Part shown: positions 34,599-51,888 of the stretch, piece by piece
How positions within the stretch are numbered: the stretch's first letter is position 1
How the letters are laid out: each line of letters opens with the position of its first letter
Source: an uncultured Flammeovirgaceae bacterium
GTDB lineage: Bacteria; Bacteroidota; Bacteroidia; Cytophagales; Cyclobacteriaceae
Length of the DNA: 64,000 bases
Direction: 5' to 3'
Assembly (NCBI GenBank): GCA_937883755.1
Contig: CAKZYA010000015.1
Coordinates: forward strand, 1-64,000
The notes under the pieces: generated by a model
What the model was told of the DNA's origin: nothing
The model's database searches: none
What the model saw: only the letters and a program-made list of their open reading frames with translations
Translations under genes and position numbers: made by a program

Positions 34599-34611
34599 AG
34601 ACGGATAGATT

Positions 34612-34650
34612 AGGAGAAAAAAAGGCTAAAGCGCACTACACTTTAGCCTT
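34612..34650 (-). terminator. Rho-independent terminator after the PhoX-like gene
   Basis: AAGGCTAAAG (34622-34631) pairs with CTTTAGCCTT (34641-34650): 10-bp stem, 9-nt loop, and on the minus strand a run of seven T. It ends 18 bp after the PhoX-like stop and 13 bp before the peroxidase ATG, so the peroxidase gene must have its own promoter or depend on readthrough. Confidence 0.88.
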
Positions 34651-34667
34651 CCGATATGTCTGAAATG

Positions 34668-36548: not shown

Positions 36549-36841
36549 GATAAAAATTAAGGTTGTACTATTGATGAAAACTGGGCTCAATTTAGTACTA
36601 AGCCTCTGCCGAACAGTTACCTCAATTTTACCATTCTGTGAATGAATTATTACCTATGTTAACTGAATATTATATTTCAAGAAAATTTCAGACAAACTAC
36701 TTACGACAAAAGTAAATTTGTGTTTAATCGGAAATACTTATTAAAAAAGCATGTATTACTCCAAGCTAATATTTGCCTAGAATGATCACAATCATCAATT
36801 AGGATCTGTATTTGATCGTGTGACTACAGAGATAGCTCGTC

Positions 36842-37402
36842 CTACTTCTTGTTCTTTTTCTTCTCGATAACATCACGGATACGAGCCGCACTTTGGTAAT
36901 CTTCTTTAGCAATTAGTTTAGCTAGCAAAGCTTCCAGTTCTTTTAGTGGGTAGTCAGAGAAAGGTCCCTTTTTGCCTACTACTGCGGATAACTCATTAGT
37001 AAATCCTACTGCATTAAGCACCTCTGAAGTGGTATAAATAGGGCAAGTGAAACGCACCGAAAGCGCGATGGCATCGGAACTTCGGGCTTCTATGGTGATG
37101 GCCTTTCCTGATGAATTCTTTAGCTGGAGCTGCGCGTAAAATATATTTTCCTCTAGCTTGTATATAAACACTTCTTTTAACGTAACCTGGAGAGCTTCTA
37201 ATGTTTGCTTAAATAGGTCGTGGGTAAGCGGCCGCTGAGGCTGCATATTTTCCAAAGTCATAGCAATGGCTTGCGCTTCACCTCTACCAATTACGATCGG
37301 CAAACGACGTCCATTAGGGCGTTCCTCTAGTATCAGGGCGAAATTACCTGGGTGCGATTCGCTATCGGTAAGTGCTACTACGTCTAAGGCTATTTTTTCC
37401 AT
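36842..37402 (-). CDS. Bifunctional nuclease family protein (DUF151) with UVR motif
   Basis: 186 aa. Residues 1-130 match the DUF151 fold (LPIVIGRGEAQAIAMTLENM, then RPLTHDLFKQTLEAL and SSDAIALSVRFTCPIYT). The C-terminal 35 residues (LKELEALLAKLIAKEDYQSAARIRDVIEKKK) are a UvrB/UvrC-type motif. Related proteins in plants and bacteria show nuclease activity, but the bacterial role is not settled. It lies 143 bp downstream of the hydrogenase locus on the same strand, separated by two palindromic repeats. Confidence 0.88.
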   Translation of the reverse strand: MEKIALDVVALTDSESHPGNFALILEERPNGRRLPIVIGRGEAQAIAMTLENMQPQRPLTHDLFKQTLEALQVTLKEVFIYKLEENIFYAQLQLKNSSGKAITIEARSSDAIALSVRFTCPIYTTSEVLNAVGFTNELSAVVGKKGPFSDYPLKELEALLAKLIAKEDYQSAARIRDVIEKKKNKK

Positions 37403-37421
37403 AATCCGGGTTTTACGGTAT

Positions 37422-37445
37422 CCGGAGTCTGGAAACTGGAGACCG
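37422..37445. repeat. GGAGTC-type repeat copy 1
   Basis: The stretch begins CCGGAGTCTGGAAACTGG and ends GAGACCG. It shares GGAAACTGGAG and GAGACCG with the copy at 44353-44376 and the GGAAAC/GGAGTC words with the hairpin at 37523-37545. It lies just upstream of the DUF151 ATG. Confidence 0.7.
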
Positions 37446-37522
37446 TAATACTGTGCTTACTATTTAATTTTACCTTGATTACTTTTCCTATTTAAGGCAT
37501 ATTACCTGCTTTTTCCAATCTC

Positions 37523-37545
37523 CCGACTCCGGAAACCGGAGTCGG
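37523..37545 (-). repeat. Perfect 10-bp hairpin directly after the NHL gene
   Basis: CCGACTCCGG (37523-37532), loop AAA, CCGGAGTCGG (37536-37545). It abuts the NHL-gene stop codon at 37546-37548. The stem is GC-rich and very stable, but the minus strand lacks a T-run after it, so it is not a textbook terminator; it may still stop or protect the hydrogenase transcript. Its words match the repeats at 37422 and 44353. Confidence 0.75.
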
Positions 37546-38628
37546 TCAATTAATCAACACCACTCGGTGATTTCCGGTATCAGCAATAGCCATTGTCTGC
37601 TGGCAAATAGCTATCGAGAATGGCCAGTACAATGCTCCATCCGTTCCGCTAATTGTCTCGGCATTTTCGCTGCCGGTAGTAAAATCTTTAGGCCCGATTA
37701 AGCTATCGGCCGGTTGATTATGTTGTTGAGGCAGTTGACTAAATCGTAGTAACCGACTATTACCGGTATCAGCTACCCACAAACCACCTTCATCAAAACA
37801 ACTATCGTAGCACCAGTTTAGCGTATTGGCCTGAGGAAATAATCCGAACTGATTTTGACCATTACCTTCCCAGTTAGGTTGACCGATAATTACCGAGGCT
37901 GATTGATCAAAAGCCTCCTGCCAACGATCCCATAGTAGTACTCGATAGTACTGTGTATCGGTTATGGCTAATTGTCCCTGTGAACTGAGTTTCACTGAAT
38001 AGGGCCAAATAGGTTGCGTGTGATCGTAGTCCCGTTCCTGAAAGTTATCCTTGCCAATCAACTTATCTGCCGAGGTATTATTTTTAATCGGAATTTGATC
38101 GTAGTACAAAACGCGACGGTTGCCTGTATCAGCTACCCATAAATGCTCTCCATCTGAAGTGAGACCGTAGGGCCAATATAAAGTATGTTCAGAAGGCGCA
38201 CTTCCTACTCCCTTTTGGTTAGGCTCATTACTTGAGAAATCCGTTTGCCCCAGCACTACATCTGCTGGTTGCCCTGACTGAGTTGGGAAATTATGCCAAA
38301 TGAGTATCCGGTGATTCCAGGCATCGGCTACGGCTAATATTTTTCCGTCACTCCATAACCCGGAAGGATATTGCAAAGTAGAAGCACTCGCACCGCTTCC
38401 CTGATTACGTTCAGTGCCTGTAGCTATATCCTGGCCAAGAACTATATCGGGAGGCTGAAACTCTTCGGTAGGTAGTTGGTTCCAGATAAAAACTCGATTC
38501 TGCCCGGTATCCGACACTAGTAATTTATTATCTAACAAGTGTACTCCACGTGGAGCCAGAAATGGACTGTCGGGTGCTCCCTTAAAAGTACGAAGCTTGG
38601 CGCTGGCATCAGGCAGATGGATAGGCAT
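37546..38628 (-). CDS. NHL-repeat protein of the hydrogenase locus
   Basis: 360-aa predicted beta-propeller with five or six NHL-like units, each ending in a variant of VADTGNHRVL (ISDTGQNRVFIW, VADAWNHRILIW, VADTGNRRVLYY, ITDTQYYRVLLW, VADTGNSRLLRF, IADTGNHRVVLI). No signal peptide, so it is cytosolic. The ATG lies 2 bp after the hypE stop, which ties it to hydrogenase maturation. In heterocystous cyanobacteria an NHL protein is likewise encoded in the extended hyp operon and has been proposed to help mature the uptake-hydrogenase small subunit. That role here is inference. Confidence 0.88.
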   Translation of the reverse strand: MPIHLPDASAKLRTFKGAPDSPFLAPRGVHLLDNKLLVSDTGQNRVFIWNQLPTEEFQPPDIVLGQDIATGTERNQGSGASASTLQYPSGLWSDGKILAVADAWNHRILIWHNFPTQSGQPADVVLGQTDFSSNEPNQKGVGSAPSEHTLYWPYGLTSDGEHLWVADTGNRRVLYYDQIPIKNNTSADKLIGKDNFQERDYDHTQPIWPYSVKLSSQGQLAITDTQYYRVLLWDRWQEAFDQSASVIIGQPNWEGNGQNQFGLFPQANTLNWCYDSCFDEGGLWVADTGNSRLLRFSQLPQQHNQPADSLIGPKDFTTGSENAETISGTDGALYWPFSIAICQQTMAIADTGNHRVVLIN

Positions 38629-38630
38629 AG

Positions 38631-39680
38631 CTAACAGATTCGGGGTAGCTGTTCTCCAGCTAGCATATTCACTACTCGTCGGCCACCAATACCACTGGTG
38701 AGAACTACCTGACGAGGGTGTTCGCTGGTTACTTCACCAATACAGGCCGATCTTGAGAAACCACTGGCTTGCAATTGTTCTAATGCGGCTTGGTAAATAT
38801 TGTCCGCCACGATTGCCAAAAATAAACCTTCATTGGCAACGTAGAGCGGATCCAACCCTAGTAGCTCACAAGCCCCGGCTACCTGTTCATCTACCGGAAT
38901 ATCTGCTTGTCGTAGATTAATGCCCAGATGAGCGCTGCGGGCAATTTCATTAAGTACAGTGCCTACTCCACCCCTAGTTGGGTCGCGCAGTAGGTGTACC
39001 AATGAACCAAATTCGTCTAAAAGGTTTTTCACGGGTTGATGAAGTGGTGCAGAGTCTGTCTGAATTTCCGTTTCAAACTCTAAGCCCTCCCGCACCGACA
39101 TAATTGCCATTCCGTGATTTGCTAATGGCCCACTCACGATAATCTTATCACCTGCTTGTACACGGTTGATACCAATATCTGCTTGCGGGTGTACTTTCCC
39201 TATTCCGGCGGTGTTGATGAAAAGTTTATCGCCTTTGCCTCGCTCAACCACTTTAGTATCGCCGGTTACTACTTTCACTCCGGCTTGCTTACAACATTGC
39301 TGAATAGTTAAAAGAACTTCCCAAAGCTCAGTCATGGGTAAACCTTCCTCAATAATTAGGCTGAGGGAAAGATACTGCGGAACAGCCCCACACATGGCTA
39401 AGTCATTGATGGTTCCGTTAACTGCCAAATCACCAATATTTCCTCCTGGGAAAAAAAGTGGTGAAACCACAAAACTATCAGTAGTGAATGCGGTATTTCC
39501 TTCTAGCGAGAGCTGCGCTCCGTCGTGACGCTCACTTTCTAATTCATCAGAAAATAGGTTGAGAATAACATCATCCAGTAGCTTATTGGTTAGTAATCCG
39601 CCACTGCCGTGCCCCATCGTGATTACGTCGAAGTCGAGTTCAGGTAGCGGGCAGTTCAGTTGCATTCGGAATTGAGTCAT
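38631..39680 (-). CDS. hypE: Hydrogenase maturation protein HypE (carbamoyl dehydratase)
   Basis: 349 aa. Dehydrates the carbamoyl group on its own C-terminal Cys to make the cyanide ligand for the Fe(CN)2CO centre. Motifs: MGHGSGG near the N-terminus, TTDSFVVSPLFFPGG, GDLAVNGTINDLAMCGA, LRDPTRGGVGTVLNE, and the essential C-terminal PRIC ending in Cys349. Works with HypF, whose gene lies upstream in the same locus. The ATG is 9 bp after hypD. Confidence 0.97.
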   Translation of the reverse strand: MTQFRMQLNCPLPELDFDVITMGHGSGGLLTNKLLDDVILNLFSDELESERHDGAQLSLEGNTAFTTDSFVVSPLFFPGGNIGDLAVNGTINDLAMCGAVPQYLSLSLIIEEGLPMTELWEVLLTIQQCCKQAGVKVVTGDTKVVERGKGDKLFINTAGIGKVHPQADIGINRVQAGDKIIVSGPLANHGMAIMSVREGLEFETEIQTDSAPLHQPVKNLLDEFGSLVHLLRDPTRGGVGTVLNEIARSAHLGINLRQADIPVDEQVAGACELLGLDPLYVANEGLFLAIVADNIYQAALEQLQASGFSRSACIGEVTSEHPRQVVLTSGIGGRRVVNMLAGEQLPRIC

Positions 39681-39689
39681 AGCCGATAA

Positions 39690-40775
39690 TTAGGCTTCCT
39701 GATAGTGAAAATAGGCCGCGCAGGCTCCCTCAGATGAAACCATGGGTGCACCGAGCGGAGTAGAAGGCGTACAAGCCTTACCGAACTGCGAACACTCAAA
39801 GGGCTTCTTCAGTCCTCTGAGTACCTGCCCGGCAATACATGCTGCACATTCTTGCGCGTGATGAATATTGACTGAGAACTTTTTATTAGCATCAAAAGCC
39901 GCTAGTTCCGGGCGCACCTCGTAGCCACTTTGCGGAATGGTGCCGATTCCGCGCCACTCTCGGTCCGCTATTTGAAATACCTGCTCAATGGCTTTTTGCG
40001 CGGCTAAATTTCCTTCGGGACGAACCACTCGTTTGTACTGATTCTCTAACTCATGCTGATTACGCTCCAACTGCCGTACCGTCATCAGAATACCTTGAAG
40101 CAAATCGACCGGCTCGAAACCCGTTACCACAATAGGAATTTGATATTTCTCAGCAATGGGGTAGTAGGCATCAATACCCATGATCGTGCAAACGTGCCCG
40201 GCAGCCAGAAATCCCTGAATCACATTTTCATCGTCAGCTAACACCGCTTCCATTGCCGGAGGTACCAGCACATGCGAAGCCAGAATAGAATAGTTGGTCA
40301 ATCCGGCGCGTTGCGCGTGCAGTACCGAAAGCGCATTGGCGGGAGCCGTTGTTTCAAAACCTACGGCGAAGAAAACCACTTCACGGTCAGGATTTTCCTG
40401 CGCCAGCTTTACGGCTTCTAAGGGCGAATACAAGATGCGAACGTCCGCCCCCTTAGCTTTGGCCTTCAGTAAGCTACGTTCCGAACCTGGCACCCGCAGC
40501 ATATCGCCAAACGAGCAGAGGATCACGTTTTTCTCCTCAGCTAGGTAAACAGCTTTATCAATTAGATGAAGGGGAGTGACGCAGACCGGACAACCGGGGC
40601 CGTGTACCATCGTAATTTCGTCAGGAAGCAGACCCAACAATCCGTTTTTTACAATACTGTGGGTTTGCCCGCCACACACTTCCATAATTGTCCACGGGCG
40701 AGTCACAGTTTTACGAATCTCTTCCAAATAAGATTGGGCTAATTCAGGGTCGCGGTATTCGGTTAGGAATTTCAT
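39690..40775 (-). CDS. hypD: Hydrogenase maturation protein HypD (Fe-S)
   Basis: 361 aa, normal length. Iron-sulfur scaffold protein on which the Fe(CN)2CO unit is built together with HypC. Family motifs: [24 protein letters not shown] (active-site thiols), [19 protein letters not shown] and the C-terminal cluster Cys residues in [17 protein letters not shown] and [23 protein letters not shown]. Followed closely by hypE. A 116-bp spacer separates it from hypC. Confidence 0.97.
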
Positions 40776-40827
40776 AGTAGGTAACTTAAAATTATGGAAT
40801 AACAGTCAAGGCGACTGACGCTTTCTA

Positions 40828-40859
40828 AGATTATCTTGAGACTCTATCTTTAAGATAGA
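40828..40859. repeat. Two small AAGAT/ATCTT dyads between hypC and hypD
   Basis: AAGATTATCTT at 40828-40838 and TCTATCTTTAAGATAGA at 40843-40859 are odd-length palindromes sharing the ATCTT word. They could be short hairpins or binding sites; nothing adjacent decides. Confidence 0.35.
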
Positions 40860-40891
40860 AAAGAACCAAGTGTATTCAATTCAATGCGAGT

Positions 40892-41146
40892 TTACACTTC
40901 TGGGTTCAATTCATCCAGTTCGCCGACTTCTTTTAGGTACTGAAAGGTCTCCTTCGCTTCTTTCTCATCGACGACGCTAATCGCAACGCCTACGTGTACC
41001 AGCACGTAGTCTCCTTCTTGGGCGTGAGGAACCATCTCAAGCGTAGCTTCTTTGGTAATTCCACCGAACAGTACCTGCGCCATTCGCACCGTACCATCGT
41101 ACTGCATTTCTATTGATTTGATCTTTCCAGGAATTGCTAGACACAT
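40892..41146 (-). CDS. hypC: Hydrogenase assembly chaperone HypC
   Basis: 84 aa. Starts MCLAIPGKI with the essential Cys2 that carries the iron unit with HypD and delivers it to the large subunit. The VLVHVGVAISVVDEKEA core is typical. The ATG at 41146 is clear. It is flanked on both sides by repeat-containing spacers rather than tight operon joins. Confidence 0.96.
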   Translation of the reverse strand: MCLAIPGKIKSIEMQYDGTVRMAQVLFGGITKEATLEMVPHAQEGDYVLVHVGVAISVVDEKEAKETFQYLKEVGELDELNPEV

Positions 41147-41156
41147 AAGTTATTAA

Positions 41157-41209
41157 TTGACAGTGGATAGTTGATAGTTGATAGTTGATAGTTGATAGTT
41201 GATAGTGTA
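41157..41209. repeat. Tandem GATAGTT repeat between hypF and hypC
   Basis: Five full 7-bp units GATAGTT run from 41166, followed by a sixth as GATAGTG (to 41207), and preceded by TGACAGTG. Read on the other strand the words are CAACTATC and CACTGTCA. The same words appear in the gap before the DUF4494 gene (58713-58745). It looks like a slippage-expanded member of a dispersed family. Confidence 0.9.
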
Positions 41210-41236
41210 TAAAATACTACTTTTAAAATATAGTCG

Positions 41237-43579
41237 CTAGACTTCAATAGATTCATTCTTTACTATGGTAATCACCTGAGCTTTTTGTTGTATTTGATAG
41301 CAGGCTAGTTGGCCGAAAGAAATATTTTCATCGTTGGGCGATAGCTGTTGGTGGAAGAATAATTCGTAGTCATCCGCCATTAGTTTATAAATCATATCGA
41401 CTAGCAGAGCATTCTGGAACACACCGCCACTCATTGCTACTTTTTTAATACTCAGCTTATTGGCTACCTGCCGAATACAATCAGCTAGTGAGTAATGAAA
41501 GCGAGCCGCGATGAATCCATTGCTATGCTCTCCCTTATCTTGAAGAATACCATCTGCCAAAGATTGATAAGATATAGTTTTCTCTACCTCAAACTCACTG
41601 AAGTAACTGGTTAGTTTCCCATAACCATGACGTTGGATATAATCAGTAGCCAATGTTTCTAGCAATAGCGCAGCTTCACCTTCATAGGTAGCCCGATCAA
41701 TCAAACCTAAAACACTGGCTACGCCGTCAAATAAGCGACCTACACTAGAAGTTCGTAATCTATCGGTTTGGTGCAATTGTCGGGTGTAGTACTGCCATTC
41801 AATTGCAGAAAATTTCTCCTTAGAAACATCACTTCCATTGGTTAGGGATAGAGCCGACAGGCGAGGCTCATAAGCCATCTTATCGCCCATCAAATGTGGA
41901 AAATAGTCGAAGTGAGCTACTCGCTCGAAAGAATAGTTACTATACTGAAAGAACTCGCCACCCCAGATTTGTCCGTCGTCGCCTAAACCGGTTCCGTCCC
42001 AGATTACTCCCAGCACAGATTCACCAAGATCAATCAATTGGTTCTCACCTAACACTGCTGCGAAATGGGCTTGGTGGTGCTGAACGGTTGCTACGGATAC
42101 TTGAAACTCCTCGGCTAACTGATTGCCGAACTGCGTAGAGAAATACTGCGGATGCTGGTCAGTTAAGATCACCTCTGGCTGAGTATCAAATAATTCAAGA
42201 AGATGAGATAATACTTTACGGTAGCTTTGTTGCGAATCATAGCTGGCTAAGTCGCCCAGGTACTGGCTAATGTATTGGTTTCCGTAGTGCGTGTAAGCAA
42301 AAATGCTTTTTAGGTCGCTACCCATCGCCAGCACATTCTTTTCAGAAACAGTTGACTGAGGTAGCACCAATGTAGGTGCCATTCCTCGTGAGCGTCGTAG
42401 TACAATTTTTTGGTGGGTTTCAGAGCTAAACCGAACCACCGAATCATCTTGGGGAATGACAATCTCCCGATTATACGTCAGGCGAAAATCAACTAATGAG
42501 GATAGTTGGCGTTCGGCATTTTCTTCAGTATAAATAATGGGTGAACCACTGATATTGGCACTGGTAGCAACCACTGGTTTGCCTACTTCCTGCATTAAAA
42601 TTTCAAATAGCGGAGCGTAGGGCAACATTACTCCTACTTGCTGTAAGTCGGGGGCAACCTCTTGAAATGCCAACCGCTTTTTCACCGCATCAGTTGCCGG
42701 AAGCAGTACGATGGGTGCTACTGAACCCGTTAGTAGTTTCTCAACTTCATGATCCACAAACATATCCTGCTGCAACTGTGCCAACGACGGGTACATCACT
42801 GCAAAGGGTTTAGTCGGGCGATGCTTTCTCTTTCGTAATGTACTTATTGTTTTAGCATTGGTAGCATCGCAAACTAGTAAATAACCACCTACTCCTTTGA
42901 TAGCGATGATCGCTCCACCCCGCAGCTTTTCAGCAGCCTTTTTAATGACTAATGATTGACCTGTCCCGGACTCCGTTCCGGGATGATTAGTGATTAAACT
43001 TCCTTGGGCATCGTAGAGTGTGAGCGTGATTGGACACTGAGAACAAGTATTAGCCTGAGCGTAATATCGACGGTCGACAGGGTTATTATATTCCTGCTGG
43101 CAATCCACGCATAATTCAAATGGAGCCATAGCAGTAGTGGCTCGGTCGTAAGGCAGTTCATTGATAATGGAGTAGCGAGGGCCACAGTGAGTACAATTCG
43201 TGAAGGCGTATTGGTGGCGGCGACTGTCTTGCTGGGCTATCTCAGATCGACAGGCAGAACATAAACCCAAATCAGGCGTGAGCAAAACGTCTCGGCGGTG
43301 GGTACTTTCACTGTGAACGATTGAGAAACTATGAAACTCTTGCCAAGCTATCTCTTGAAGGCTATGGTTAGTAATTTGGGCTACCACTGGATGCTCCTCT
43401 AGAATTGCCTCGAGAAATAACTGCACTACTGATTGTGAAGCATTTAATAAAACCCGTACCCCATCACTACGGTTACTTACCTGTCCGGTAAGGTTAAACC
43501 GTTGAGCAAGCTGATAGACAAAGGGACGGAATCCCACCCCCTGCACTTGACCTTGAATATGGATTTGATAGGTTGGCAA
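41237..43579 (-). CDS. hypF: Carbamoyltransferase HypF
   Basis: 780 aa. Makes the carbamoyl group from carbamoyl phosphate and ATP and passes it to HypE. Domain order: acylphosphatase (residues 1-90, GQVQGVGFRPFVY), two zinc-finger units (C107, C110, C129, C132 and C157, C160, C179, C182), YrdC-like (about 214-385, GAIIAIKGVGGY) and the Kae1-like domain (VQHHQAHFAAVLGE, GTGLGDDGQIWGGEF, MSGGVFQNALL). The only suitable start is a TTG at 43579, 6 bp after the hypB stop. Residues about 194-212 (SLITNHPGTESGTGQSLVI) appear to be an extra stretch encoded by repeat-like DNA at 42940-43000. Confidence 0.96.
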   Translation of the reverse strand: MPTYQIHIQGQVQGVGFRPFVYQLAQRFNLTGQVSNRSDGVRVLLNASQSVVQLFLEAILEEHPVVAQITNHSLQEIAWQEFHSFSIVHSESTHRRDVLLTPDLGLCSACRSEIAQQDSRRHQYAFTNCTHCGPRYSIINELPYDRATTAMAPFELCVDCQQEYNNPVDRRYYAQANTCSQCPITLTLYDAQGSLITNHPGTESGTGQSLVIKKAAEKLRGGAIIAIKGVGGYLLVCDATNAKTISTLRKRKHRPTKPFAVMYPSLAQLQQDMFVDHEVEKLLTGSVAPIVLLPATDAVKKRLAFQEVAPDLQQVGVMLPYAPLFEILMQEVGKPVVATSANISGSPIIYTEENAERQLSSLVDFRLTYNREIVIPQDDSVVRFSSETHQKIVLRRSRGMAPTLVLPQSTVSEKNVLAMGSDLKSIFAYTHYGNQYISQYLGDLASYDSQQSYRKVLSHLLELFDTQPEVILTDQHPQYFSTQFGNQLAEEFQVSVATVQHHQAHFAAVLGENQLIDLGESVLGVIWDGTGLGDDGQIWGGEFFQYSNYSFERVAHFDYFPHLMGDKMAYEPRLSALSLTNGSDVSKEKFSAIEWQYYTRQLHQTDRLRTSSVGRLFDGVASVLGLIDRATYEGEAALLLETLATDYIQRHGYGKLTSYFSEFEVEKTISYQSLADGILQDKGEHSNGFIAARFHYSLADCIRQVANKLSIKKVAMSGGVFQNALLVDMIYKLMADDYELFFHQQLSPNDENISFGQLACYQIQQKAQVITIVKNESIEV
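42940..43000 (-). repeat. Repeat-like insert within the hypF coding region
   Basis: On the plus strand TTTTTAATGACTAATGATTG is followed by the palindrome CCCGGACTCCGTTCCGGG (42965-42982) and then GATGATTAGTGATTAA. The flanks are an imperfect inverted repeat, the word TTAATGACTAA recurs in the hypA-hypB spacer, and GGACTCCG echoes the GGAGTC palindromes. The segment is a multiple of three in effect, as the frame stays open. Confidence 0.6.
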
Positions 43580-43585
43580 AAGAAT

Positions 43586-44308
43586 TTATACAGCTGCTTC
43601 TTGAGTCTGACTTTCTTGTTTCTCTCGAACTTTATCCAGCAACCACTCACACCAGGCATCAATACCTTCGCCGCTGGTGCTAGAAATCTGGATCATTTCA
43701 ATATCAGGATTTACCTCCCGGGCGTCCTGGGTAACCGCTTCTACCGAGAAGGGCAGATAAGGTAGTAAGTCAGCTTTCGATACTAGCATCAAATCGCTGG
43801 TTAGGAACATTCGGGGATACTTCTTCGGCTTGTCATCGCCCTCGGTAGTCGCCATCAGCGTCACCCGATAATCCTCTCCCAAATCAAAGGAAGCTGGGCA
43901 TACTAGATTGCCTACATTTTCTACAATCAGCAGTTCTACTCCGTCCAGATCAACCTGATCCATCGCCTGCCATACCATTTGAGCTTCTAGATGACAAATA
44001 CCTCCAGTTACAATTTGTAATGCATCTACTCCGGCATCGCGGATTCGGGCGGCATCTCGCTCAGTTTCCAGATCTCCTACCAGCACTTTCATTTTTACCT
44101 GGTTGCTAATACGACGAGCCGTTTCCTGCAACAAAGTCGTTTTTCCACTACCAGCCGACGAAGTGATATTAATCATCAGAATGTTCCTCCGTTGCATTTC
44201 TTTACGGATATTCTCGGCCACAAAGTCGTTAGCTTTTAATAGGTTAAGCGAGGTATTTTCGCACTGTACGCTTCCTCTTGCTCCCTTGCTTGATTTTTCT
44301 ATTGCCAT
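43586..44308 (-). CDS. hypB: Hydrogenase nickel incorporation GTPase HypB
   Basis: 240 aa. GTPase that, with HypA, inserts nickel into the large subunit. P-loop SAGSGKT at 51-57, GDLETERDAARI switch region, ENVGNLVCP with the metal-binding Cys, and SKADLLPYL as the guanine-specificity motif. There is no His-rich N-terminal nickel store and no CxxCGC site, so it is the short form. The ATG at 44308 is preceded by a 213-bp repeat-rich spacer after hypA. Confidence 0.97.
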   Translation of the reverse strand: MAIEKSSKGARGSVQCENTSLNLLKANDFVAENIRKEMQRRNILMINITSSAGSGKTTLLQETARRISNQVKMKVLVGDLETERDAARIRDAGVDALQIVTGGICHLEAQMVWQAMDQVDLDGVELLIVENVGNLVCPASFDLGEDYRVTLMATTEGDDKPKKYPRMFLTSDLMLVSKADLLPYLPFSVEAVTQDAREVNPDIEMIQISSTSGEGIDAWCEWLLDKVREKQESQTQEAAV

Positions 44309-44352
44309 GATTGTTACTAGGTTTTGGGGGTTAAGGATTATGTGTTGTAGAA

Positions 44353-44376
44353 CGGAAACTGGAGTCGGGAGACCGG
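44353..44376. repeat. GGAGTC-type repeat copy in the hypA-hypB spacer
   Basis: Reads CGGAAACTGGAGTCGGGA then GACCGG. Shares the GGAAACTGGAG and GAGACCGG words with the copy at 37422-37445 and, in inverted form, the CTCCCGACTCCGG words with the hairpin after the NHL gene. Confidence 0.75.
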
Positions 44377-44445
44377 AAAAGTAGATAGTAGCTAAATTTT
44401 CGCTTTCTGTCCTTTATCTTTTCCATCTTTCACTTTCCATTAGTT

Positions 44446-44540
44446 ATTAGTCATTAATCATTATCTAACTTCTCATCTTTCATATCTCATATCTCACATC
44501 TCATATTTTCATTACTCATTGCTAACTGCTAACTGCTAAT
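44446..44540. repeat. Stuttering word-repeat in the hypA-hypB spacer, reaching into hypA
   Basis: A run of near-identical short words: TTAGTTATTAGTCATTAATC, then TCATCTTTCATATCTCATAT and CTCACATCTCAT, then ATTACTCATTGC and the tandem CTAACTG. The last part (GCTAACTGCTAACTGCTAAT) overlaps the 3' end of hypA and encodes its final residues LAVSS and its stop codon. Confidence 0.8.
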
Positions 44541-44887
44541 TGTTCGTCGAAGTGTACTTGATGAATCAGTAGTTCAGTTCCCTGAACTACGTTGTTGTTT
44601 AGTTGGCCGCATTCTTCGCACACAAATTTATACTGATGTACCTCTGACTTACGGTCGCAGGATGAGCAGTAGATGGCTACGGGCACGGTTTCAATCTCTA
44701 ACTTTACTGCTTCGTACTGCTTTTCGGTTTCGGTTAGAGCTTGGAAGGCGTTTTGCATTAGAATAGGTTCTACATTCGCGAGCAACCCTACCTGCAAGTT
44801 TACTTGTACTAATCGATTCATTTTATCGGCTGAAAACTCATCTTCCAGCGTTCGAAAGATGCTACGAACCAAAGACATCTCATGCAT
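44522..44887 (-). CDS. hypA: Hydrogenase nickel incorporation protein HypA
   Basis: Nickel metallochaperone. I start at the ATG 44887, giving MHEMSLVRSIF, because the N-terminal Met-His is the nickel site; the frame extends three codons further to 44896. Structural zinc is bound by the two CxxC pairs in CSSCDRKSEVHQ and FVCEECG. The C-terminus (EQLAVSS and stop) is encoded by the tandem GCTAACT repeat, so the original end may have been replaced. The start overlaps the TPR-gene stop by 8 bp (ATGCATGA). Confidence 0.95.
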   Translation of the reverse strand: MHEMSLVRSIFRTLEDEFSADKMNRLVQVNLQVGLLANVEPILMQNAFQALTETEKQYEAVKLEIETVPVAIYCSSCDRKSEVHQYKFVCEECGQLNNNVVQGTELLIHQVHFDEQLAVSS

Positions 44888-46385
44888 AGCCTTCACTTTT
44901 AGCTTCCTGTTCTAAGCGAAATAACTCCTTCAAATGACGCTCGGCTTCAGCTAGTAAATCAGGAGCATCTACTAGCGACTTCACTTCTTGAGCTTTATTG
45001 AGCATATCCTGATACCGAACCTGATTAAAATCATCTTCTCCATTATCCAGAAACCAACTGGCTTCTAAATAATTGAGCAGCGTGATTGCCCGCTCGTAAG
45101 GGTACGCCGAGGTACGAACCGTTAAAGCTTCTTTATAAAAATCTAACGCTTTTTCGTAATTGTCAATTCGCAAAGCAGTTGGGTACTTCGTTAGAGCATT
45201 AGCGTAGTTGTTACAAACCAGTCCGTATTCATACGGATGCGCTTCTTTGGTAAAGAAACGTAAGGCTTCCTGAAATGAAGTAGCCGATACCGCTGCCCAA
45301 ATCCCTTTTTTCTGCTGCAGATCTGACATTTCTGCGTAAAGCACTCCTAAGTGAGCGTGAATTTGAGCGAATGTTTCCGGAGCCTCATCCCGCTTGAAAA
45401 CTTTTAAAGCTTCCTGATAGGTATCAATGGCTGGCTTATAAAACTGAGGATTACCGTTCTGCGCCCAAGTGTACAGCAGCGCGCCTTTTCGAAGCAGACT
45501 GCTTCCGGCTAGTTCAGGTAAATCCTGCGCCCGAAAAATATCTAATGCCCGATTGACATATCCTAGTGATTCCGAATAACTCTCAGAAATATTGGCTACT
45601 TCGGAAGCATCAATTAGTAGTAAGCCTACCTCCGCCAGTCTTTCCTGTCGCTCCAGGTACGTCAGTGTATCCCAAAGCAAATCTTTAAGGTCATCAATAT
45701 GCTTCGGATCATAAGGAACGGACAATCGCGCCATCCAGGTACTAATTAGTACCGACTTCAGCGCGTAAGAAGCCTCTTCCGATAAATCTTGGGAGAGGTA
45801 CTGCTGCAATAGTTTTTCCGCTTCTACCCCCTGGTCGGTGTCGGTATCCAGCAACAAAGTAGCGTACTGCTTGAGCGTAAAGGCATAGTGTTCATTATCA
45901 GGAGACGATGCTAACGCTTTCTGGTACATCTGCTGCACATCAGCCAGTGCTACCAAAGAAGGCCAAAGACCATACTGCTGAAGCAAAGCTCTGTTGTGTT
46001 CGGAACGATAATCTTCTTTATCCAGAGTATCAGCTACTTCTACTGGTAGCCGTTGATTGGTTTGTAAGCAACCAAGACTAACCACTTCATTGTAGAGTTG
46101 GGGATACTGGGCAAAGTAACGCTGAGCTTCGGCGTAGTTACCTAAGGCAATGAAAATGTAGCCCAGCAGGGTTTCAGAACTAAATGCTACCGGACTGTTC
46201 ATTAGAAAAGGCGGGGCATTATTATCCCAATTTAGTGGCATGATGATACCTCGTTCGTCCACGATTAAATCTGCCACTAAAGCGTCTTCGGTAGTAATCG
46301 TTATTAACTCCGATAGCCGAGGCACCGAATCGATGATTTGTGCTACTTCGGTCTGATAGGTTTTATTTAGGTAGATGGTTATCAT
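44880..46385 (-). CDS. TPR-repeat protein of the hydrogenase locus
   Basis: 501 aa, cytosolic and all-helical. Several tetratricopeptide-like units are visible from residue 75 on (LGYIFIALGNYAEAQRYFAQ, SYSESLGYVNRALDIFRAQ, KPAIDTYQEALKVFKR, NYEKALDFYKEALTVRTS). The first 60 residues are non-TPR. It overlaps hypA by 8 bp and starts 5 bp after the 104-aa gene, so it is firmly in the hydrogenase operon. A TPR gene also occurs in the cyanobacterial extended hyp operon. A scaffold role in small-subunit maturation or enzyme assembly is a reasonable inference. Confidence 0.88.
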   Translation of the reverse strand: MITIYLNKTYQTEVAQIIDSVPRLSELITITTEDALVADLIVDERGIIMPLNWDNNAPPFLMNSPVAFSSETLLGYIFIALGNYAEAQRYFAQYPQLYNEVVSLGCLQTNQRLPVEVADTLDKEDYRSEHNRALLQQYGLWPSLVALADVQQMYQKALASSPDNEHYAFTLKQYATLLLDTDTDQGVEAEKLLQQYLSQDLSEEASYALKSVLISTWMARLSVPYDPKHIDDLKDLLWDTLTYLERQERLAEVGLLLIDASEVANISESYSESLGYVNRALDIFRAQDLPELAGSSLLRKGALLYTWAQNGNPQFYKPAIDTYQEALKVFKRDEAPETFAQIHAHLGVLYAEMSDLQQKKGIWAAVSATSFQEALRFFTKEAHPYEYGLVCNNYANALTKYPTALRIDNYEKALDFYKEALTVRTSAYPYERAITLLNYLEASWFLDNGEDDFNQVRYQDMLNKAQEVKSLVDAPDLLAEAERHLKELFRLEQEAKSEGYA

Positions 46386-46390
46386 TGTTC

Positions 46391-46705
46391 TTACAAATTA
46401 ATCTTCAAAATACCCGAGGTATCCTGAACAGTATACGCCAACTCACGATCCTCATCATCAAGTGCGTTGTCAATCAGGATTTCATGCAAAGCAATGGTTT
46501 TGTCTCCCTGCAAATTTCTCGTTTTGAGTAGATGCTGACTCGGCTTATGCATTTTGTAAAACCACTGTTGAGAAACCGGGGCAACGAGTAGGGTACCACG
46601 CTCGGCCTGATAAGCCAAATAAGCTTGCGGATCATCGCCAAATACTTTCGTGGCGATCTCACCTGGGATGTATAAATGAGACGATTTTAGGGTGATGCTA
46701 TCCAT
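46391..46705 (-). CDS. Conserved-context small protein of the hydrogenase locus (unknown)
   Basis: 104 aa with no recognised domain and no signal or membrane helix. Sequence begins MDSITLKSSHLYIPGEIATK and is mixed alpha/beta, with a HEILIDNALDDEDRELAYTV acidic segment towards the end. No cysteines, so it does not hold an Fe-S cluster. Its ATG lies inside the endopeptidase gene (19-bp overlap) and its stop is 5 bp before the TPR gene. The tight coupling argues for a function with the hydrogenase; small unknown genes stand at the same place in cyanobacterial hup/hyp clusters, but I cannot claim homology. Confidence 0.75.
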   Translation of the reverse strand: MDSITLKSSHLYIPGEIATKVFGDDPQAYLAYQAERGTLLVAPVSQQWFYKMHKPSQHLLKTRNLQGDKTIALHEILIDNALDDEDRELAYTVQDTSGILKINL

Positions 46706-47190
46706 GTTACCTCCTCTAAAATATATTCTACTACCCGGTCGCCCGCTTGTTGCACTACTTCGGACATACCTACTTCTAGTCGGGTGTTATCAATTGCAAT
46801 TAAGTATACCTGAATATCCTCGGGGTACTCATCCTGCATCAGTTTCTTGGCATACGAAAGGGCTTGATCCCACTTGATGCTGTGCAGAAAAACCATAGGG
46901 TCATCTTGAGGTGCTTTTCGGACTTCCTCGGCCGGAACTCGGTACAATGTCCCTATCGGATCACCGGTATTAACTACCGCATCCACCAAGATAATTTGCT
47001 GGTGCCCTTTCAATTGAAAGAGCACCTCAAAGGCTGAGGTACCCATGTCAAACAGGCTAACGTCTTCCCTATCGGAAAGGGCGCGCTGAAGTTGCTGAAT
47101 TACGTAAGTTCCCACCGCATCGTCGCTTCGGACTGGATTTCCGAAACCCATAATGGCGATACGGTGAGAGGTGCTTCCCGTCATAGTCAT
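46687..47190 (-). CDS. Hydrogenase maturation endopeptidase (HupW/HyaD family)
   Basis: Aspartic-type endopeptidase that trims the C-terminal tail of the large subunit after nickel insertion. Motifs: IAIMGFGNPVRSDDAVG near the N-terminus with the metal-sensing Asp, ILVDAVVNTGDP in the middle and a late HSI and RLEVGMS. I take the ATG at 47190; an in-frame GTG at 47196 is possible. It follows the large-subunit gene by 40 bp. The large subunit does carry a cleavable tail, so the pair is coherent. Confidence 0.93.
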   Translation of the reverse strand: MTMTGSTSHRIAIMGFGNPVRSDDAVGTYVIQQLQRALSDREDVSLFDMGTSAFEVLFQLKGHQQIILVDAVVNTGDPIGTLYRVPAEEVRKAPQDDPMVFLHSIKWDQALSYAKKLMQDEYPEDIQVYLIAIDNTRLEVGMSEVVQQAGDRVVEYILEEVTWIASP

Positions 47191-47230
47191 ACTCACTACT
47201 TCTCGTTAAAGAAAATCTTCCGCTACAGAG

Positions 47231-48823
47231 CTACAGCTTAAAACGAGCTAATTCTTTTTCGTCTTTAGCATCGTGGGCGTGTACGGTACACACCAGACAA
47301 GAATCAAAGGATCGAGCGACCATACCAACTTCTACCGGATCATGAGCATCTTCGATCTCAGTTCCTTCTAAAGCTGCCTCAATCGGCCCAGGCTTGCCTT
47401 CGCCATCGTTCGGACCAACATTCCAGGTAGTAGGGGCTACTACTTGGTAGTTTTCAATCACACCATTCTTAATTTCAATCCAGTGCGCTAACGCTCCGCG
47501 AGCTGCCTCGGTGGCTCCCCAGCCTTTTCCATCGCGCTCTTCGGGTTTGATGTAGAATTCCGAATCCAGATCGATCTGGCCAAGCCATTCGTTGATATAC
47601 TCGTAGATGCGCGGGGCTTCGTGCATTCGGGCTAAAGTACGAGTGAATACGCTTGGGCCTTTTTCTTTCATAATGTCCCCGAACAACGGATCACGGTTTT
47701 GGTGCTCTAAATTAGCCGGATTAGCTGCCATAATTACTCGTGATAAAGGCCCCGCTTCCGCCGCATGAGTCATATAGCGAGGAGATTTTGACCAACTGTA
47801 TTTTCCAGTAAAGTCCGTTTCTGTGAGTATGGTAGACGTTTCTACCGGGGTGGGTATAGGCTCTTCCCAAGGATGCGCCGGAGCGTGATCCTTAAACCAA
47901 GTATGCTCCACGTGCTCAGCGATCTGCATATGATCAAGAGCATGATAGTTTTCACCATCATGAAAACCACCGGCACTAATCAGCGCATTATTACGAGCTT
48001 CAATAGTAGGGTTGTTATACATGTCCTTATGAAGGTAGGTTCCGTACGCTACGTATTTACCTACTCCCTGACCAAAGGTGTCTAACCCAAACTCCAGAGA
48101 AGCTCGAATAAATAACCCTAAATCACTATTTCGCTGCGATTCGTTTTCATCTACCCAAGCCATCAGATCATCCCAAGACTTAATCTGTAGGTAACGCTCA
48201 ATGGAGCAACCTAGCCAAACTGGCTCTAACCAATCATTTCGGAACTGGTTCATAATGGCGTGCGCCCGAGTAATATCTTTCAGTGTCGGGGCACACATCA
48301 CTCCACCCGGTACCATATAACTGGAGTGAGGCCACTGTCCACCGAATAAAGCATAAACCTCTACTGGACGACCACTCGCCGTTACTCCCGTCTGGAAAGA
48401 AGTACCTACGTAAGCAGCAAATCGCTTTACCACTTCCTGATACAAAGGCTTGCTGGCAAACTTCTTATTCGCCATATCGGTGGCGAAGATCGCGTAAAAC
48501 CAACGAGGGATACTTTGAATAGTTTCGGTAGCCTGACCGATTGCTCTCAGTAATAAAGCATTAGGAGGAAGCTGTGTTTTCCAGGCAGTATCCAGTGCCG
48601 AAGAAGCACAATAGAGATGCGAGCCCCCGCAAATCCCACAGATACGCGGAGTTACAATCAAACCTGACTGAGGATCTTTACCCTGCATAATTTTCTCAAA
48701 GCCCCGGAACATAGCGGCTTGTGTATGGGCACGGGTTACAACCCCATCTTCCATGTACACCTTCACATCCAGGTCACCTTCTACCCGACCTACGGGCGAA
48801 ATATTTAATTCTTTTGATTCCAT
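47231..48823 (-). CDS. hupL: [NiFe] hydrogenase large subunit (group 2a-like)
   Basis: 530 aa, catalytic subunit binding the Ni-Fe centre. N-terminal ligands C62 and C65 in RICGICGGSH (H69), C-terminal ligands C509 and C512 in SFDSCLVCTVH with His515. The 15 residues after His515 (AHDAKDEKELARFKL) are the tail removed by the endopeptidase. DSCLVCTVH in place of the DPCxxCxxH of group 1 enzymes is characteristic of the cyanobacterial HupL/mycobacterial Huc type (group 2a). No Tat signal, consistent with a soluble enzyme. Lies 10 bp after the small-subunit gene. Confidence 0.96.
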   Translation of the reverse strand: MESKELNISPVGRVEGDLDVKVYMEDGVVTRAHTQAAMFRGFEKIMQGKDPQSGLIVTPRICGICGGSHLYCASSALDTAWKTQLPPNALLLRAIGQATETIQSIPRWFYAIFATDMANKKFASKPLYQEVVKRFAAYVGTSFQTGVTASGRPVEVYALFGGQWPHSSYMVPGGVMCAPTLKDITRAHAIMNQFRNDWLEPVWLGCSIERYLQIKSWDDLMAWVDENESQRNSDLGLFIRASLEFGLDTFGQGVGKYVAYGTYLHKDMYNNPTIEARNNALISAGGFHDGENYHALDHMQIAEHVEHTWFKDHAPAHPWEEPIPTPVETSTILTETDFTGKYSWSKSPRYMTHAAEAGPLSRVIMAANPANLEHQNRDPLFGDIMKEKGPSVFTRTLARMHEAPRIYEYINEWLGQIDLDSEFYIKPEERDGKGWGATEAARGALAHWIEIKNGVIENYQVVAPTTWNVGPNDGEGKPGPIEAALEGTEIEDAHDPVEVGMVARSFDSCLVCTVHAHDAKDEKELARFKL

Positions 48824-48833
48824 AATATGCTCG

Positions 48834-49793
48834 TTATTTGGATGTTACAGTAAGTTCTTTATTCGTCGGCAGTATTTTTTCCCAACCGGCGCGAGCGTAG
48901 TACATTAGTTTAGATTGCCCGGTAGGCACATCTTGGGGGAATACGCCCAGATACTTCATAGTATTGAAGACACTACCCTTCTGTAAATCGTGGTGAGGGA
49001 AGCCCGGCTCGGTACAACCCAAACAAGGGTGATTTGCCCGAGTCTTACTTGACTGACGGTTCCAAAGAATACGGTTACAACTGGCGTGAGTCATCGGCCC
49101 TCGGCACCCAACTTCATAAAATAAGCAGCCACCCCGCTTACCGAAGTGCCCATCAACCTTCTGAGCGAAGTTATTCACATTAGGGCAGCCACTTTGTACA
49201 AAATCAGTGAAAAAGGTTTTAGGACGGTGATAATCATCTAGCAGAATATCTTTAGCCCGTCCGGTAGCAATTCCGACCAGTATTTGGGTGATCCAATCGG
49301 GGTGAGCTGGGCAACCCGGAATGTTGATTACGGGCAGTCCGGCTTGCGATTTGTAGTCGGCTCCTAAAAAGCCACCTTTGCTTTTCTTCAAAAACTGCAT
49401 TCCGGTAGACTCACTGGGGTTAGGTGGTACGGCAGGAATCCCTCCCCAAGTAGCGCAGTCGCCAATAGCTACGGTAAATTGGGCAACTTCGGAAAGCTCT
49501 TTTACCCAGTCTTTCATAGGTCGGTCGGCAAAGTAGTTCATCGTGCCTTTTCCGTTAGGTCCCTGAACAATAGAACCTTCAAACACTAATATGTCAAGCT
49601 GGACTTTTTTGGAAATACAATCTTTAAGAAGATCCGAGACTTGTTCGCCTATTTCTAGACCGATGGAGGGATGCCAGAGGATATTGATGCCGAAATCGGT
49701 CACCAGTTCCACCACAGTGGGTTCTTCAGCGTTGAGGAACGACATGGTGTTGCCGCTGCAAGCTCCGCCCTGAAGCCATAATACGTTAATCAT
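48834..49793 (-). CDS. hupS: [NiFe] hydrogenase small subunit (group 2a-like)
   Basis: Electron-transfer subunit with Fe-S clusters. The ATG at 49793 gives MINVLWLQGGACSGN; the frame also has a TTG at 49799. There is no twin-arginine leader and no C-terminal membrane anchor, so the enzyme is cytosolic. The N-terminal cluster motif has a single Cys (C12), unlike the CxxC of standard small subunits; the group 2a enzyme Huc, as I recall, has three [3Fe-4S] clusters. Other Cys motifs are AIGDCATWGG, INIPGCPAHPDWI, FVQSGCPNVN, GGCLFYEVGCRGPMTHASCNR and HPCLGCTEPGFP. The protein closely resembles cyanobacterial HupS as remembered. About 319 aa. Confidence 0.96.
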   Translation of the reverse strand: MINVLWLQGGACSGNTMSFLNAEEPTVVELVTDFGINILWHPSIGLEIGEQVSDLLKDCISKKVQLDILVFEGSIVQGPNGKGTMNYFADRPMKDWVKELSEVAQFTVAIGDCATWGGIPAVPPNPSESTGMQFLKKSKGGFLGADYKSQAGLPVINIPGCPAHPDWITQILVGIATGRAKDILLDDYHRPKTFFTDFVQSGCPNVNNFAQKVDGHFGKRGGCLFYEVGCRGPMTHASCNRILWNRQSSKTRANHPCLGCTEPGFPHHDLQKGSVFNTMKYLGVFPQDVPTGQSKLMYYARAGWEKILPTNKELTVTSK

Positions 49794-49813
49794 AATCAAG
49801 TAGATTGGTTGAC

Positions 49814-49821
49814 AAAAGGTA
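49814..49821 (-). promoter_or_regulatory. Possible -7 box of the hydrogenase operon
   Basis: TACCTTTT on the minus strand, followed by G, is one base off TANNTTTG and lies about 21 bp upstream of the small-subunit ATG. It would leave a very short leader. No -33 box is evident. Low-confidence call. Confidence 0.3.
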
Positions 49822-49885
49822 GCAATTTACTGCTCTTGTTTGAGCACTATTTTTAACGAATTGATAATATATAGGAAAGCTGCTT

Positions 49886-49907
49886 AATTAGAAAATATTT
49901 TCTAATT
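49886..49907. promoter_or_regulatory. 22-bp perfect palindrome, candidate TetR operator
   Basis: The core TTAGAAAATATTTTCTAA is extended by AA/TT on both sides to a 22-bp fully self-complementary site, centred at 49896/49897. A further half-site-like TTTCTAAAG follows. It lies 47-68 bp past the tetR stop and 93-114 bp upstream of the small-subunit ATG. TetR dimers bind palindromes of this size, and the adjacent regulator gene makes it the obvious candidate. An all-A/T stem is a poor terminator. Confidence 0.65.
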
Positions 49908-49953
49908 TTTCTAAAGTCTGTATTGGTTCTAAATAAGAGAAAATTGTTCACTA

Positions 49954-50577
49954 CTACTCTTTTGGCGCAAGCAGGGGTTGTATTAACTCATTGTACTCAG
50001 CTAGCCCACGAGAAGTAAAATAGGGCAGGAACTGACTCCAGATAGCTCTCTTATATTCCTTCTCATTGTCTGCTAACTTACCCTGTAATCCCCGGTACAA
50101 CGGCCATAGAGTAACCGTCATACCAATCGTTTCAGCTACTACTCGATAATCGCGCTGAGCAGTATCGGGTTGGACAGCTCCACGTTTACAATGAAAATCG
50201 AACCGCTTTTGAATTTGGCACACCAAACGAGAAAATAGCTGCGTTCGTAAGCGTTGAAGTTTTTTTTCAGGCCAAGGAGTGTTATCGGAGAAATAAAAGG
50301 CATATCGTTGCTGAAAGGAAAACCATTTACCGAGTTGCTGATCAAAATCTAAAAAATCAGAGGATTGTCGAAATACGTTTAGAATCTGCCTAACCTCATC
50401 CGTTAGCTTTTGAAATACGGCAAGGGTAATTGCCTCTTTGTTCTTGAAGTGATAAGCCAAATTTCCGATACTCAATTCAGCCGAGTCGGCTATTTGCTGT
50501 AGCCTTACTGATGCTACACCGTGGGTATTGTAAAGTTCGGCCGCAGCCTGAATAATCTTTTGCTTGGTATTGACCAT
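49954..50577 (-). CDS. TetR/AcrR family transcriptional regulator
   Basis: 207 aa. N-terminal helix-turn-helix (KIIQAAAELYNTHGVASVRL, QQIADSAELSIGNLAYHFKNKEAI) at about residues 6-50, ligand-binding helical C-terminal domain with no recognisable ligand motif. It stands immediately upstream of the hydrogenase genes on the same strand, with a 22-bp palindrome between them, so it is the best candidate regulator of H2 oxidation here. In other organisms group 2a genes respond to carbon or oxygen limitation, but the signal sensed by this protein is unknown. Confidence 0.88.
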   Translation of the reverse strand: MVNTKQKIIQAAAELYNTHGVASVRLQQIADSAELSIGNLAYHFKNKEAITLAVFQKLTDEVRQILNVFRQSSDFLDFDQQLGKWFSFQQRYAFYFSDNTPWPEKKLQRLRTQLFSRLVCQIQKRFDFHCKRGAVQPDTAQRDYRVVAETIGMTVTLWPLYRGLQGKLADNEKEYKRAIWSQFLPYFTSRGLAEYNELIQPLLAPKE

Positions 50578-50673
50578 TGATAATAGGCGATATTAGGTCA
50601 TTTTCTTGGTTGTGAGCCAAAAAATCAAATTGGGCATTGGGTACTTTCTCTAATCCAGAGCTGCTGGAACAGC

Positions 50674-51033
50674 TTAGTTACCATTATATTGAAATAGATT
50701 TTTATCTACTTGTAATGTTCCACGCTGGTCTTTAGCCGCTAACCGTCTCATATAATGCGCACAGGTTTCAGCCTTCGATTTACAAAAGCAGCTGGTAATC
50801 TTACGTTTAATCAGACGATAAGGGTTTTTATAATGAGCAAACACTAAATACACTTCCCATTCCCCCTTAGCAAATCTGATATTCTCGATAACGGCGGAGT
50901 CTTGCAGCCAGTAATCGTCGTACAATAAATTGAAATCTACCACTCCGCCCACAATTTCGGTAAAGTGCATATTATTGCAAGCATCAAGCAGTACTTGATA
51001 CGCTTTTTCGTCTAAGTAGAAATCAGCGTTCAT
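50674..51033 (-). CDS. Protein with SWIM-like zinc motif (unknown)
   Basis: 119 aa. The C-terminal part contains C82-F-C84 followed by C91-A-H93, i.e. the CxC...CxH pattern of SWIM zinc fingers, which bind DNA or proteins. The N-terminal 70 residues are a mixed fold without a known signature. It is 96 bp upstream of tetR on the same strand. Function unknown; a relation to the hydrogenase genes is possible but unsupported. Confidence 0.65.
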   Translation of the reverse strand: MNADFYLDEKAYQVLLDACNNMHFTEIVGGVVDFNLLYDDYWLQDSAVIENIRFAKGEWEVYLVFAHYKNPYRLIKRKITSCFCKSKAETCAHYMRRLAAKDQRGTLQVDKNLFQYNGN

Positions 51034-51136
51034 TCAAAATTAGAGATTTCCCAACTCTAAAGGTAATATAGAGAAATAAAGTCGGGTTCCGAATTATTCA
51101 GCGAATCGGCTTATTGGTTTTTTTTAATCTTTGCCC

Positions 51137-51679: not shown

Positions 51680-51888
51680 TATAATAGTCGTGCCATCGCT
51701 TTCTAGTTATAGAAACGGGTTTGACTAAGAAAAGATGGTCAAACGCAAAAGCAGTTTCAAGTTTCCAGGAAGCTCATATCTGATACAACCATTCTTTTGG
51801 AACTGAAACATATTTCAGCAATTTTTGTAATGGTGAGGAGGAAATAAGCTCCCACATCTTTTAAAGATCATAGTACTAGCTAAACCGT

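Follow-up and report, generated by a model that had tools for sequence, protein, structure and literature searches.

A 64,000-nucleotide stretch from an uncultured Flammeovirgaceae bacterium (GCA_937883755.1, contig CAKZYA010000015.1; genome of 7.6 Mb), called the window here and used for all coordinates of its features, carries an island of hydrogenase genes that, read from its sequence, is real, intact and ordinary in kind for group 2a of the [NiFe]-hydrogenases. The best explanation of the island as a whole, and a probable one, is that it would encode a Huc-like, cytoplasmic, leaderless group 2a uptake [NiFe]-hydrogenase that is free of HucE and HucM and controlled by a TetR-family regulator. 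Huc is the enzyme of Mycobacterium smegmatis (7utd, 7uur, 7uus and 8dqv; PMC10017518), and, when the two are aligned, the enzyme of the window has the same ligand residues and the same tyrosines at the menaquinone site. Since a Bacteroidota-associated radiation of group 2a HucL, with 34 Bacteroidota genomes and with NHL genes nearby, has already been described (Islam 2020, PMC7784904), group 2a membership is not new, and the branch that includes the window is very probably the same clade. New here are a small gene (u119), gene fusions that involve the accessory genes, a conserved palindrome, and a branch without HucE in which the end of HupS is changed. The accessible part of that paper has no mention of HucE loss, u104, u119 or a TetR operator, and no report of HucE loss in Bacteroidota, of u104 or u119, or of a TetR operator was found in the literature, of which Fig. 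S4 of the same paper may show the gene order.

A Huc-like enzyme in a branch without HucE

The closest matches of HupL among all PDB chains were the Huc large subunits 7uus (E 3e-203) and 7utd (E 4e-203), the next family following at E 4e-57; HupS matched the Huc small subunit 7uur best (E 1e-136; next 8e-35). Relatives were sampled as 80 loci fetched from GTDB genomes, 63 of them with 2.5 kb or more of DNA upstream of hupS and 70 with both the TPR gene and hypA, and co-occurrence was scored in 296 Bacteroidota genomes. A maximum-likelihood tree of HupL (IQ-TREE) comprised 48 rows: the window, 34 of the 80 relatives, two Bacteroidota plasmids, eight sequences from other phyla labelled group 2a from the content of their operons, and three outgroups (HoxC and HupV of group 2b, and an unclassified Ideonella subunit). 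The window clusters with 36 other Bacteroidota rows (support 100/99), with the group 2a rows as neighbours and HoxC, HupV and the Ideonella subunit far away; the long branches between the sets drew a warning from the program. By this tree and the matches to Huc, the predicted enzyme belongs to the Bacteroidota branch of group 2a. Group 2a and a Bacteroidota host had been proposed in a first-pass annotation made from the letters alone; both proposals hold.

This type of hupL is found in 5 of the 296 Bacteroidota genomes. In a Kapaibacterium of the same phylum and a different class (locus L025, genome G283), a hupL 83% identical to that of the window falls inside the Bacteroidota clade, which may reflect lateral transfer or a misbinned contig. 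Copies of the island on plasmids of Runella slithyformis and Hymenobacter psoromatis (L085 and L086) are consistent with mobility. A nickel-transporter-like membrane gene, annotated as a urease accessory protein on these two plasmids, is conserved near the operon in 22 of 80 relatives and is absent from the island of the window.

Fe-S cluster ligands are conserved across 88 HupS rows as in the alignment with Huc (eight cysteines in all 88, the proximal asparagine in 87, the distal glutamine in all 88), and the clusters are predicted to be of the [3Fe-4S] type. In Huc, Tyr229 and Tyr301 hold menaquinone (PMC10017518). Both of the aligned residues are tyrosine in the window, as they are in 81 and 73, respectively, of 82 Bacteroidota rows. 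Because these tyrosines are kept, direct reduction of menaquinone by HupS is the best reading of the electron path, and the electron acceptor, which the first-pass annotation had called unclear, is now less so. The same annotation was also right that cytochrome b, a Tat leader and HucM are not seen at the island.

Two full-length hupS genes stand in tandem in 11 of the 80 loci (L034, L050, L052, L056, L060, L062, L066, L070, L073, L079 and L083). Ten of the 11 first copies form one clade (support 100/98), and L034 represents a separate doubling. The residue aligned with Tyr301 is phenylalanine or histidine in 8 of the 11 first copies and tyrosine in all 11 second copies, suggestive of a changed quinone site.

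The gene for HucE, a NifU-Rieske protein whose loss abolishes Huc activity in M. smegmatis (PMC6883350), sits between the TPR and NHL genes in all eight operons of other phyla, as verified by comparison. Full-length HucE was present in 6 of 6 plasmid records searched and in none of five Bacteroidota genomes with this hupL, in which genome-wide searches gave just short NifU-like or Rieske pieces. Eight HucM and HucE queries found nothing at E 0.01 in 82 Bacteroidota stretches (tblastn) and only four weak matches (E 0.19-0.78) among the open reading frames (ORFs) of the 80 loci (blastp), in which the gene slots are partly unseen where a locus is short of DNA upstream of hupS or of the TPR gene and hypA. 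The lack of a NifU-like gene, which the first-pass annotation had mentioned in passing, is no mere detail: the missing gene is that of HucE, and it is missing from the whole branch. DUF1641, the domain of HucM, is likewise absent from the genome of the window and from four of five hupL-bearing genomes, the fifth having one 70 kb from the island; however, it is also absent from all five group 2a plasmids of alphaproteobacteria searched (chromosomes being outside the search), including that of Sphingopyxis alaskensis, which weakens the case for HucM loss as a trait specific to Bacteroidota. By these comparisons, the absence of HucE, not of HucM, is what sets the Bacteroidota apart. A HucSLM complex was rejected for the window because there is no HucM, and so was a small membrane protein in its place: 15 small hydrophobic ORFs in 13 of 80 loci are scattered and none is conserved. 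A C-terminal tail of HupS (W-x-x-ED(M/I)FV) is present in 8 of 8 copies from other phyla but in none of the 82 Bacteroidota rows, where the usual ending (73 rows) is SK. In this small sample the tail accompanies HucE but not HucM, so that, at a guess, it might form part of a contact with HucE.

In comparison with Huc, then, the island of the window is without HucM, HucE and the HupS tail, has u104 as a gene of its own rather than as a domain of HupD, and has a TetR gene and a palindrome ahead of hupS. Plasmid operons of alphaproteobacteria such as S. alaskensis, which draws H2 down to sub-atmospheric levels (PMC10305171), have hupS, hupL, hupD, u104, TPR-like, NHL and hyp genes in the same order as the window, but retain the HupS tail and HucE, the latter preceded by one or two small hydrophobic proteins. 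The extended hyp operon of Nostoc (PMC3126725) resembles the island, by description only, in combining hyp genes with genes for TPR and NHL proteins; unlike the island, it also encodes a NifU-like protein and two small proteins predicted to contain membrane stretches. With these three absent, classification of the island as a cyanobacterial-type extended hyp operon was rejected. The TPR and NHL pair, in which the first-pass annotation had heard an echo of cyanobacteria, is homologous to the pair found in group 2a operons (5 of 5 tested for each protein) and is not specially cyanobacterial.

Accessory genes and a putative TetR operator

The order of the accessory genes is conserved among the relatives. 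The gene after hupD is u104 in 75 of 78 loci, two of the misses being at contig ends (L011 and L014) and the third (L038) having a u104 that was dropped by an overlap filter. The TPR gene comes next in 74 of 75 loci, directly or via u119 (29 of 75, often a second u119 copy), and 42 of 48 NHL matches, fragments counted, directly follow hypE. The expectation of the first-pass annotation that u104, TPR and NHL genes would stand beside hydrogenases in relatives is thus borne out, and the 13 genes that it listed as a complete island are right; a fourteenth, u119, and the operator-like palindrome had been missed. Among the 63 loci that reach far upstream of hupS, 60 possess u119 and three (L011, L024 and L047) have none anywhere. 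Within the 296 Bacteroidota genomes, hupL, u104 and u119 occur in the identical five, a coincidence with a random chance of 5e-11, although the genomes share ancestry and the queries were drawn from such loci. Judged by its distribution, u119 belongs to the island as its fourteenth gene.

The same accessory set is found in eight stretches with plasmid-borne group 2a operons, which come from Actinomycetota, Deinococcota, Bacillota and Alphaproteobacteria; the group 2a operon of a Mycobacterium plasmid related to M. smegmatis, for example, has homologues of TPR, NHL, u104 and u119. The TPR and NHL proteins of the window are homologous to their counterparts in all five operons of other phyla tested, the former by family profile and the latter with 33-38% identity. 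TPR, NHL and u104 recur across phyla, so they are not local oddities. All three alphaproteobacteria tested have a u104 homologue as a gene of its own; another homologue is an ORF of Thermus that, in T. thermophilus SG0.5JP17-16, is absent from the gene annotation (L088, between 16132 and 16413).

Two fusions bear on the partners of these small proteins. In a Mycobacterium, the u104 homologue forms the C-terminal end of a 257-amino-acid (aa) HupD, and the next gene (85 aa) matches u119 with an hhalign probability of 95.8 (16 unrelated small proteins used as controls all scored 1.6 or less). In Sulfobacillus, a 165-aa protein joins a u104-like N-terminal half to a u119-like C-terminal half. Its N-terminal half has no match to the u104 profile directly (hhalign probability 0.2) and is tied to u104 via the Thermus ORF (39% identity over 92 residues, E 1e-13) and the Mycobacterium HupD end (E 2e-8); the protein matches the u119 profile weakly (41.5) and the Mycobacterium 85-aa protein more strongly (E 3e-10). 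The fusions of HupD with u104 and of u104 with u119 are good evidence that the three proteins act on one another, and point to a joint maturation module. They are apparently the first sequence-based hint of the partners of these unnamed small genes of group 2a operons.

No Pfam or NCBIfam family matches u104, and its search against the sequences of solved structures gave a single match (E 1.4), where the TPR protein had none. An AlphaFold2 model of u104 (mean predicted local distance difference test score, pLDDT, of 95.4) resembles five MraZ entries (VIA Z 8.2-8.5, root-mean-square deviation 2.5-2.7 over 89-90 residues; next unrelated row Z 4.4). As a DNA-binding fold beside a protease would be odd, a role for u104 as a chaperone or in assembly is preferred. 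The model of u119 (pLDDT 80, predicted template modelling score 0.56) had no Foldseek match under E 0.001 and a best VIA Z of 4.9, and no fold is claimed for it.

A tetR gene is present in 53 of the 63 relatives with long upstream DNA, and adjoins u119 51 times in the 80 loci. The gap between tetR and hupS in the window contains ATTAGAAAATATTTTCTAAT, with a core TTAGAAA-N4-TTTCTAA that lies within a perfect palindrome of 20 bp and ends 94 bp ahead of the probable start codon of hupS, the ATG of MINVLW. This core was discovered by word counts in 54 tetR-hupS stretches; the 7.6-Mb genome has only one exact copy (control, zero). Among 53 tetR-adjacent loci, 41 have the core, with no more than one mismatch, ahead of their first hupS; 198 shuffled half-sites, as a control, averaged 0.015 loci and never exceeded 1. 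The 11 tetR-adjacent loci without it in this place all have a doubled hupS (one copy being broken), and in 9 of 9 two-copy loci checked it precedes the second copy, which adjoins hupL; when any hupS is counted, it is found in 50 of 52 loci with tetR. The discovery set did not include the stretches of up to 300 bases upstream of hypB, hypA and u119, where extra copies occur (18 of 47, 12 of 70 and 8 of 82, respectively). The natural reading of the palindrome is as the operator of the island's TetR protein, by which the island is probably controlled. A 2026 paper (PMC13098282) notes that, in M. smegmatis, huc still lacks a known direct transcription factor; with its TetR gene and palindrome, the island would supply a concrete candidate regulator pair for a huc-type operon in a different phylum.

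Proposed mechanism and alternatives

In the proposed mechanism, HypABCDEF would assemble and insert the NiFe(CN)2CO site, and HupD would cleave the tail of HupL, with u104, u119, TPR and NHL serving as a maturation and assembly module specific to group 2a, a task suggested by the conservation, co-occurrence and fusions observed. The mature HupSL would oxidise H2 aerobically and pass electrons through three clusters with the ligand set of Huc to menaquinone, which HupS itself may reduce at the conserved pair of tyrosines with neither HucE nor a HucM-type stalk. The local TetR protein may repress or otherwise control the operon via the palindrome in response to some ligand. Recycling of H2 from nitrogenase, the cyanobacterial role, was rejected for this genome since no nifH reached the cut-off (best 30 bits against 394); the enzyme would most likely supplement respiration with environmental H2, and uptake from air, which the first-pass annotation had suggested, is plausible from the membership in group 2a, whose enzymes can use trace atmospheric H2. 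We hold more tentatively, leaning slightly against it as a full set of claims, that the Bacteroidota branch is a stripped Huc: air-stable and menaquinone-reducing without HucM or HucE, their contacts replaced by a remodelled end of HupS and the HupD-u104-u119-TPR module, and with a TetR protein of its own that switches it at a palindrome specific to the branch, a kind of direct regulator not yet found for mycobacterial huc. HucM is needed for the Huc oligomer and a proposed quinone tube (PMC10017518); if the enzymes of this branch are active, neither HucE nor HucM can be part of the core mechanism, and the branch offers a minimal form for biochemistry.

Several observations weigh against parts of this interpretation. 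The route of menaquinone to the HupS site is unexplained. The palindrome occurs also in 2 of 9 loci without tetR; it was found in tetR-bearing loci, which by itself accounts for part of its link with tetR, and the relatives do not count as independent cases. For u104, Foldseek gave no significant match (best E 0.2), and no MraZ-named Pfam match exists in 74 members of the family.

Electrons might instead leave HupS for a soluble or membrane partner encoded elsewhere, such as a stand-alone Rieske or NifU-like protein, the quinone tyrosines being relics. The missing HucE, the loss of the HupS tail in every Bacteroidota row, which implies a changed interface, and the small separate NifU-like proteins present in the genome would all fit such a route, but it is unlikely, given that tyrosine is strongly kept at both quinone positions in the main HupS copies (11 of 11 hupL-adjoining copies of two-copy loci) and that no conserved electron carrier was found among the clusters of neighbouring genes. 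The resemblance of the predicted u104 fold to the transcription factor MraZ, with the frequent adjacency of u119 to tetR, raises another alternative, in which u104, and possibly u119 as well, would regulate the operon by binding DNA rather than take part in maturation. A common fold does not prove function, however, and the fusion of u104 to HupD and to a u119-like domain, together with its fixed place between hupD and the TPR gene, with or without u119, makes such regulators improbable. It is very improbable that this strain carries the island as decayed or silent cargo: nothing in the sequence suggests it apart from mobility, as seen in sporadic presence and plasmid relatives, whereas all frames are intact, the active-site cysteine motifs are present, and HupL is 92% identical over its full length to that of an uncultured relative.

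Gene layout and other features

The 13 genes first listed for the island were confirmed on the minus strand by ORF checks, and Pfam and NCBIfam names agree (NHL, HypE (AIRS), HypD, HypC, HypF, HypB, HypA, HycI-type protease, NiFe large and small subunits, TetR). The features are listed below.

Features of the hydrogenase island and its neighbour (window coordinates)
Feature	Position	Strand	Basis
u119, 119 aa, fourteenth island gene	50674..51033	-	homologue family in 68/80 relatives
TetR-family regulator	49954..50577	-	PF00440, PF13972
Putative TetR operator, palindrome TTAGAAA-N4-TTTCTAA	49888..49905	.	upstream conservation at hupS
hupS (hucS-like), small subunit	48834..49799	-	top PDB match Huc 7uur
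hupL (hucL-like), large subunit	47231..48823	-	top PDB matches 7uus, 7utd; tree
hupD, large-subunit maturation protease	46687..47196	-	PF01750, TIGR00072
u104, 104-aa accessory protein, predicted MraZ-like (doubled AbrB-type) fold	46391..46705	-	AlphaFold2 model, VIA
TPR protein	44880..46385	-	PF00515, just over one TPR cut-off
hypA	44522..44896	-	TIGR00100
hypB	43586..44308	-	TIGR00073
hypF	41237..43579	-	TIGR00143
hypC	40892..41146	-	TIGR00074
hypD	39690..40775	-	PF01924
hypE	38631..39680	-	PF00586, PF02769
NHL-repeat protein	37546..38628	-	PF01436
Bifunctional nuclease family gene, loosely linked neighbour	36842..37402	-	PF02577

HypA scores 67.3 bits against TIGR00100, under the curated cut-off of 88.1, yet this is its top match and spans the full protein. 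The tight joints noted by the first-pass annotation hold for hypE and NHL (a gap of 2 bp) and for u104 and hupD (an overlap of 19 bp); the overlap of 8 bp between the TPR gene and hypA is true from an ATG three codons downstream of the listed GTG start, from which it is 17 bp. With gaps of 213 bp before hypB, 116 bp before hypD and 90 bp before hypC, a single transcript for the island is only putative. The probable start of hupS is the ATG of MINVLW, two codons past the listed TTG, and no leader precedes MINVLWLQGG; HupL extends 15 aa beyond the CTVH end of mature Huc. No clear membrane-spanning stretch was found in the island proteins (highest Kyte-Doolittle mean over 19 residues, 1.47, in HypE), nor any Rfam match at gathering scores in 36000-52000.

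A 7-bp tandem repeat of TTGATAG (7.1 copies) lies in the gap between hypF and hypC (41157-41206), and three runs of tandem repeats with 7-bp units lie around the gap between hypA and hypB (44438-44539). Among the genes that neighbour the operon, those of the bifunctional nuclease kind make up one cluster, represented in 21 of 80 relatives. Further downstream of the island (32652-36590) are a di-haem cytochrome c peroxidase (MauG-like) gene and a PhoX-family gene, with no indication of island membership. Elsewhere, the genome (G000) encodes a second [NiFe]-hydrogenase, group 3b-like (sulfhydrogenase-like), on contig C61 (238000-256000; L108 4653-9723), at a locus with a cyclic-nucleotide-binding protein, its own protease and no hyp genes among the listed ORFs. 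A 425-aa frame on contig C67 (7720-8544; L107) matches the RuBisCO large-chain family with 213 bits and may encode RuBisCO or a RuBisCO-like protein.

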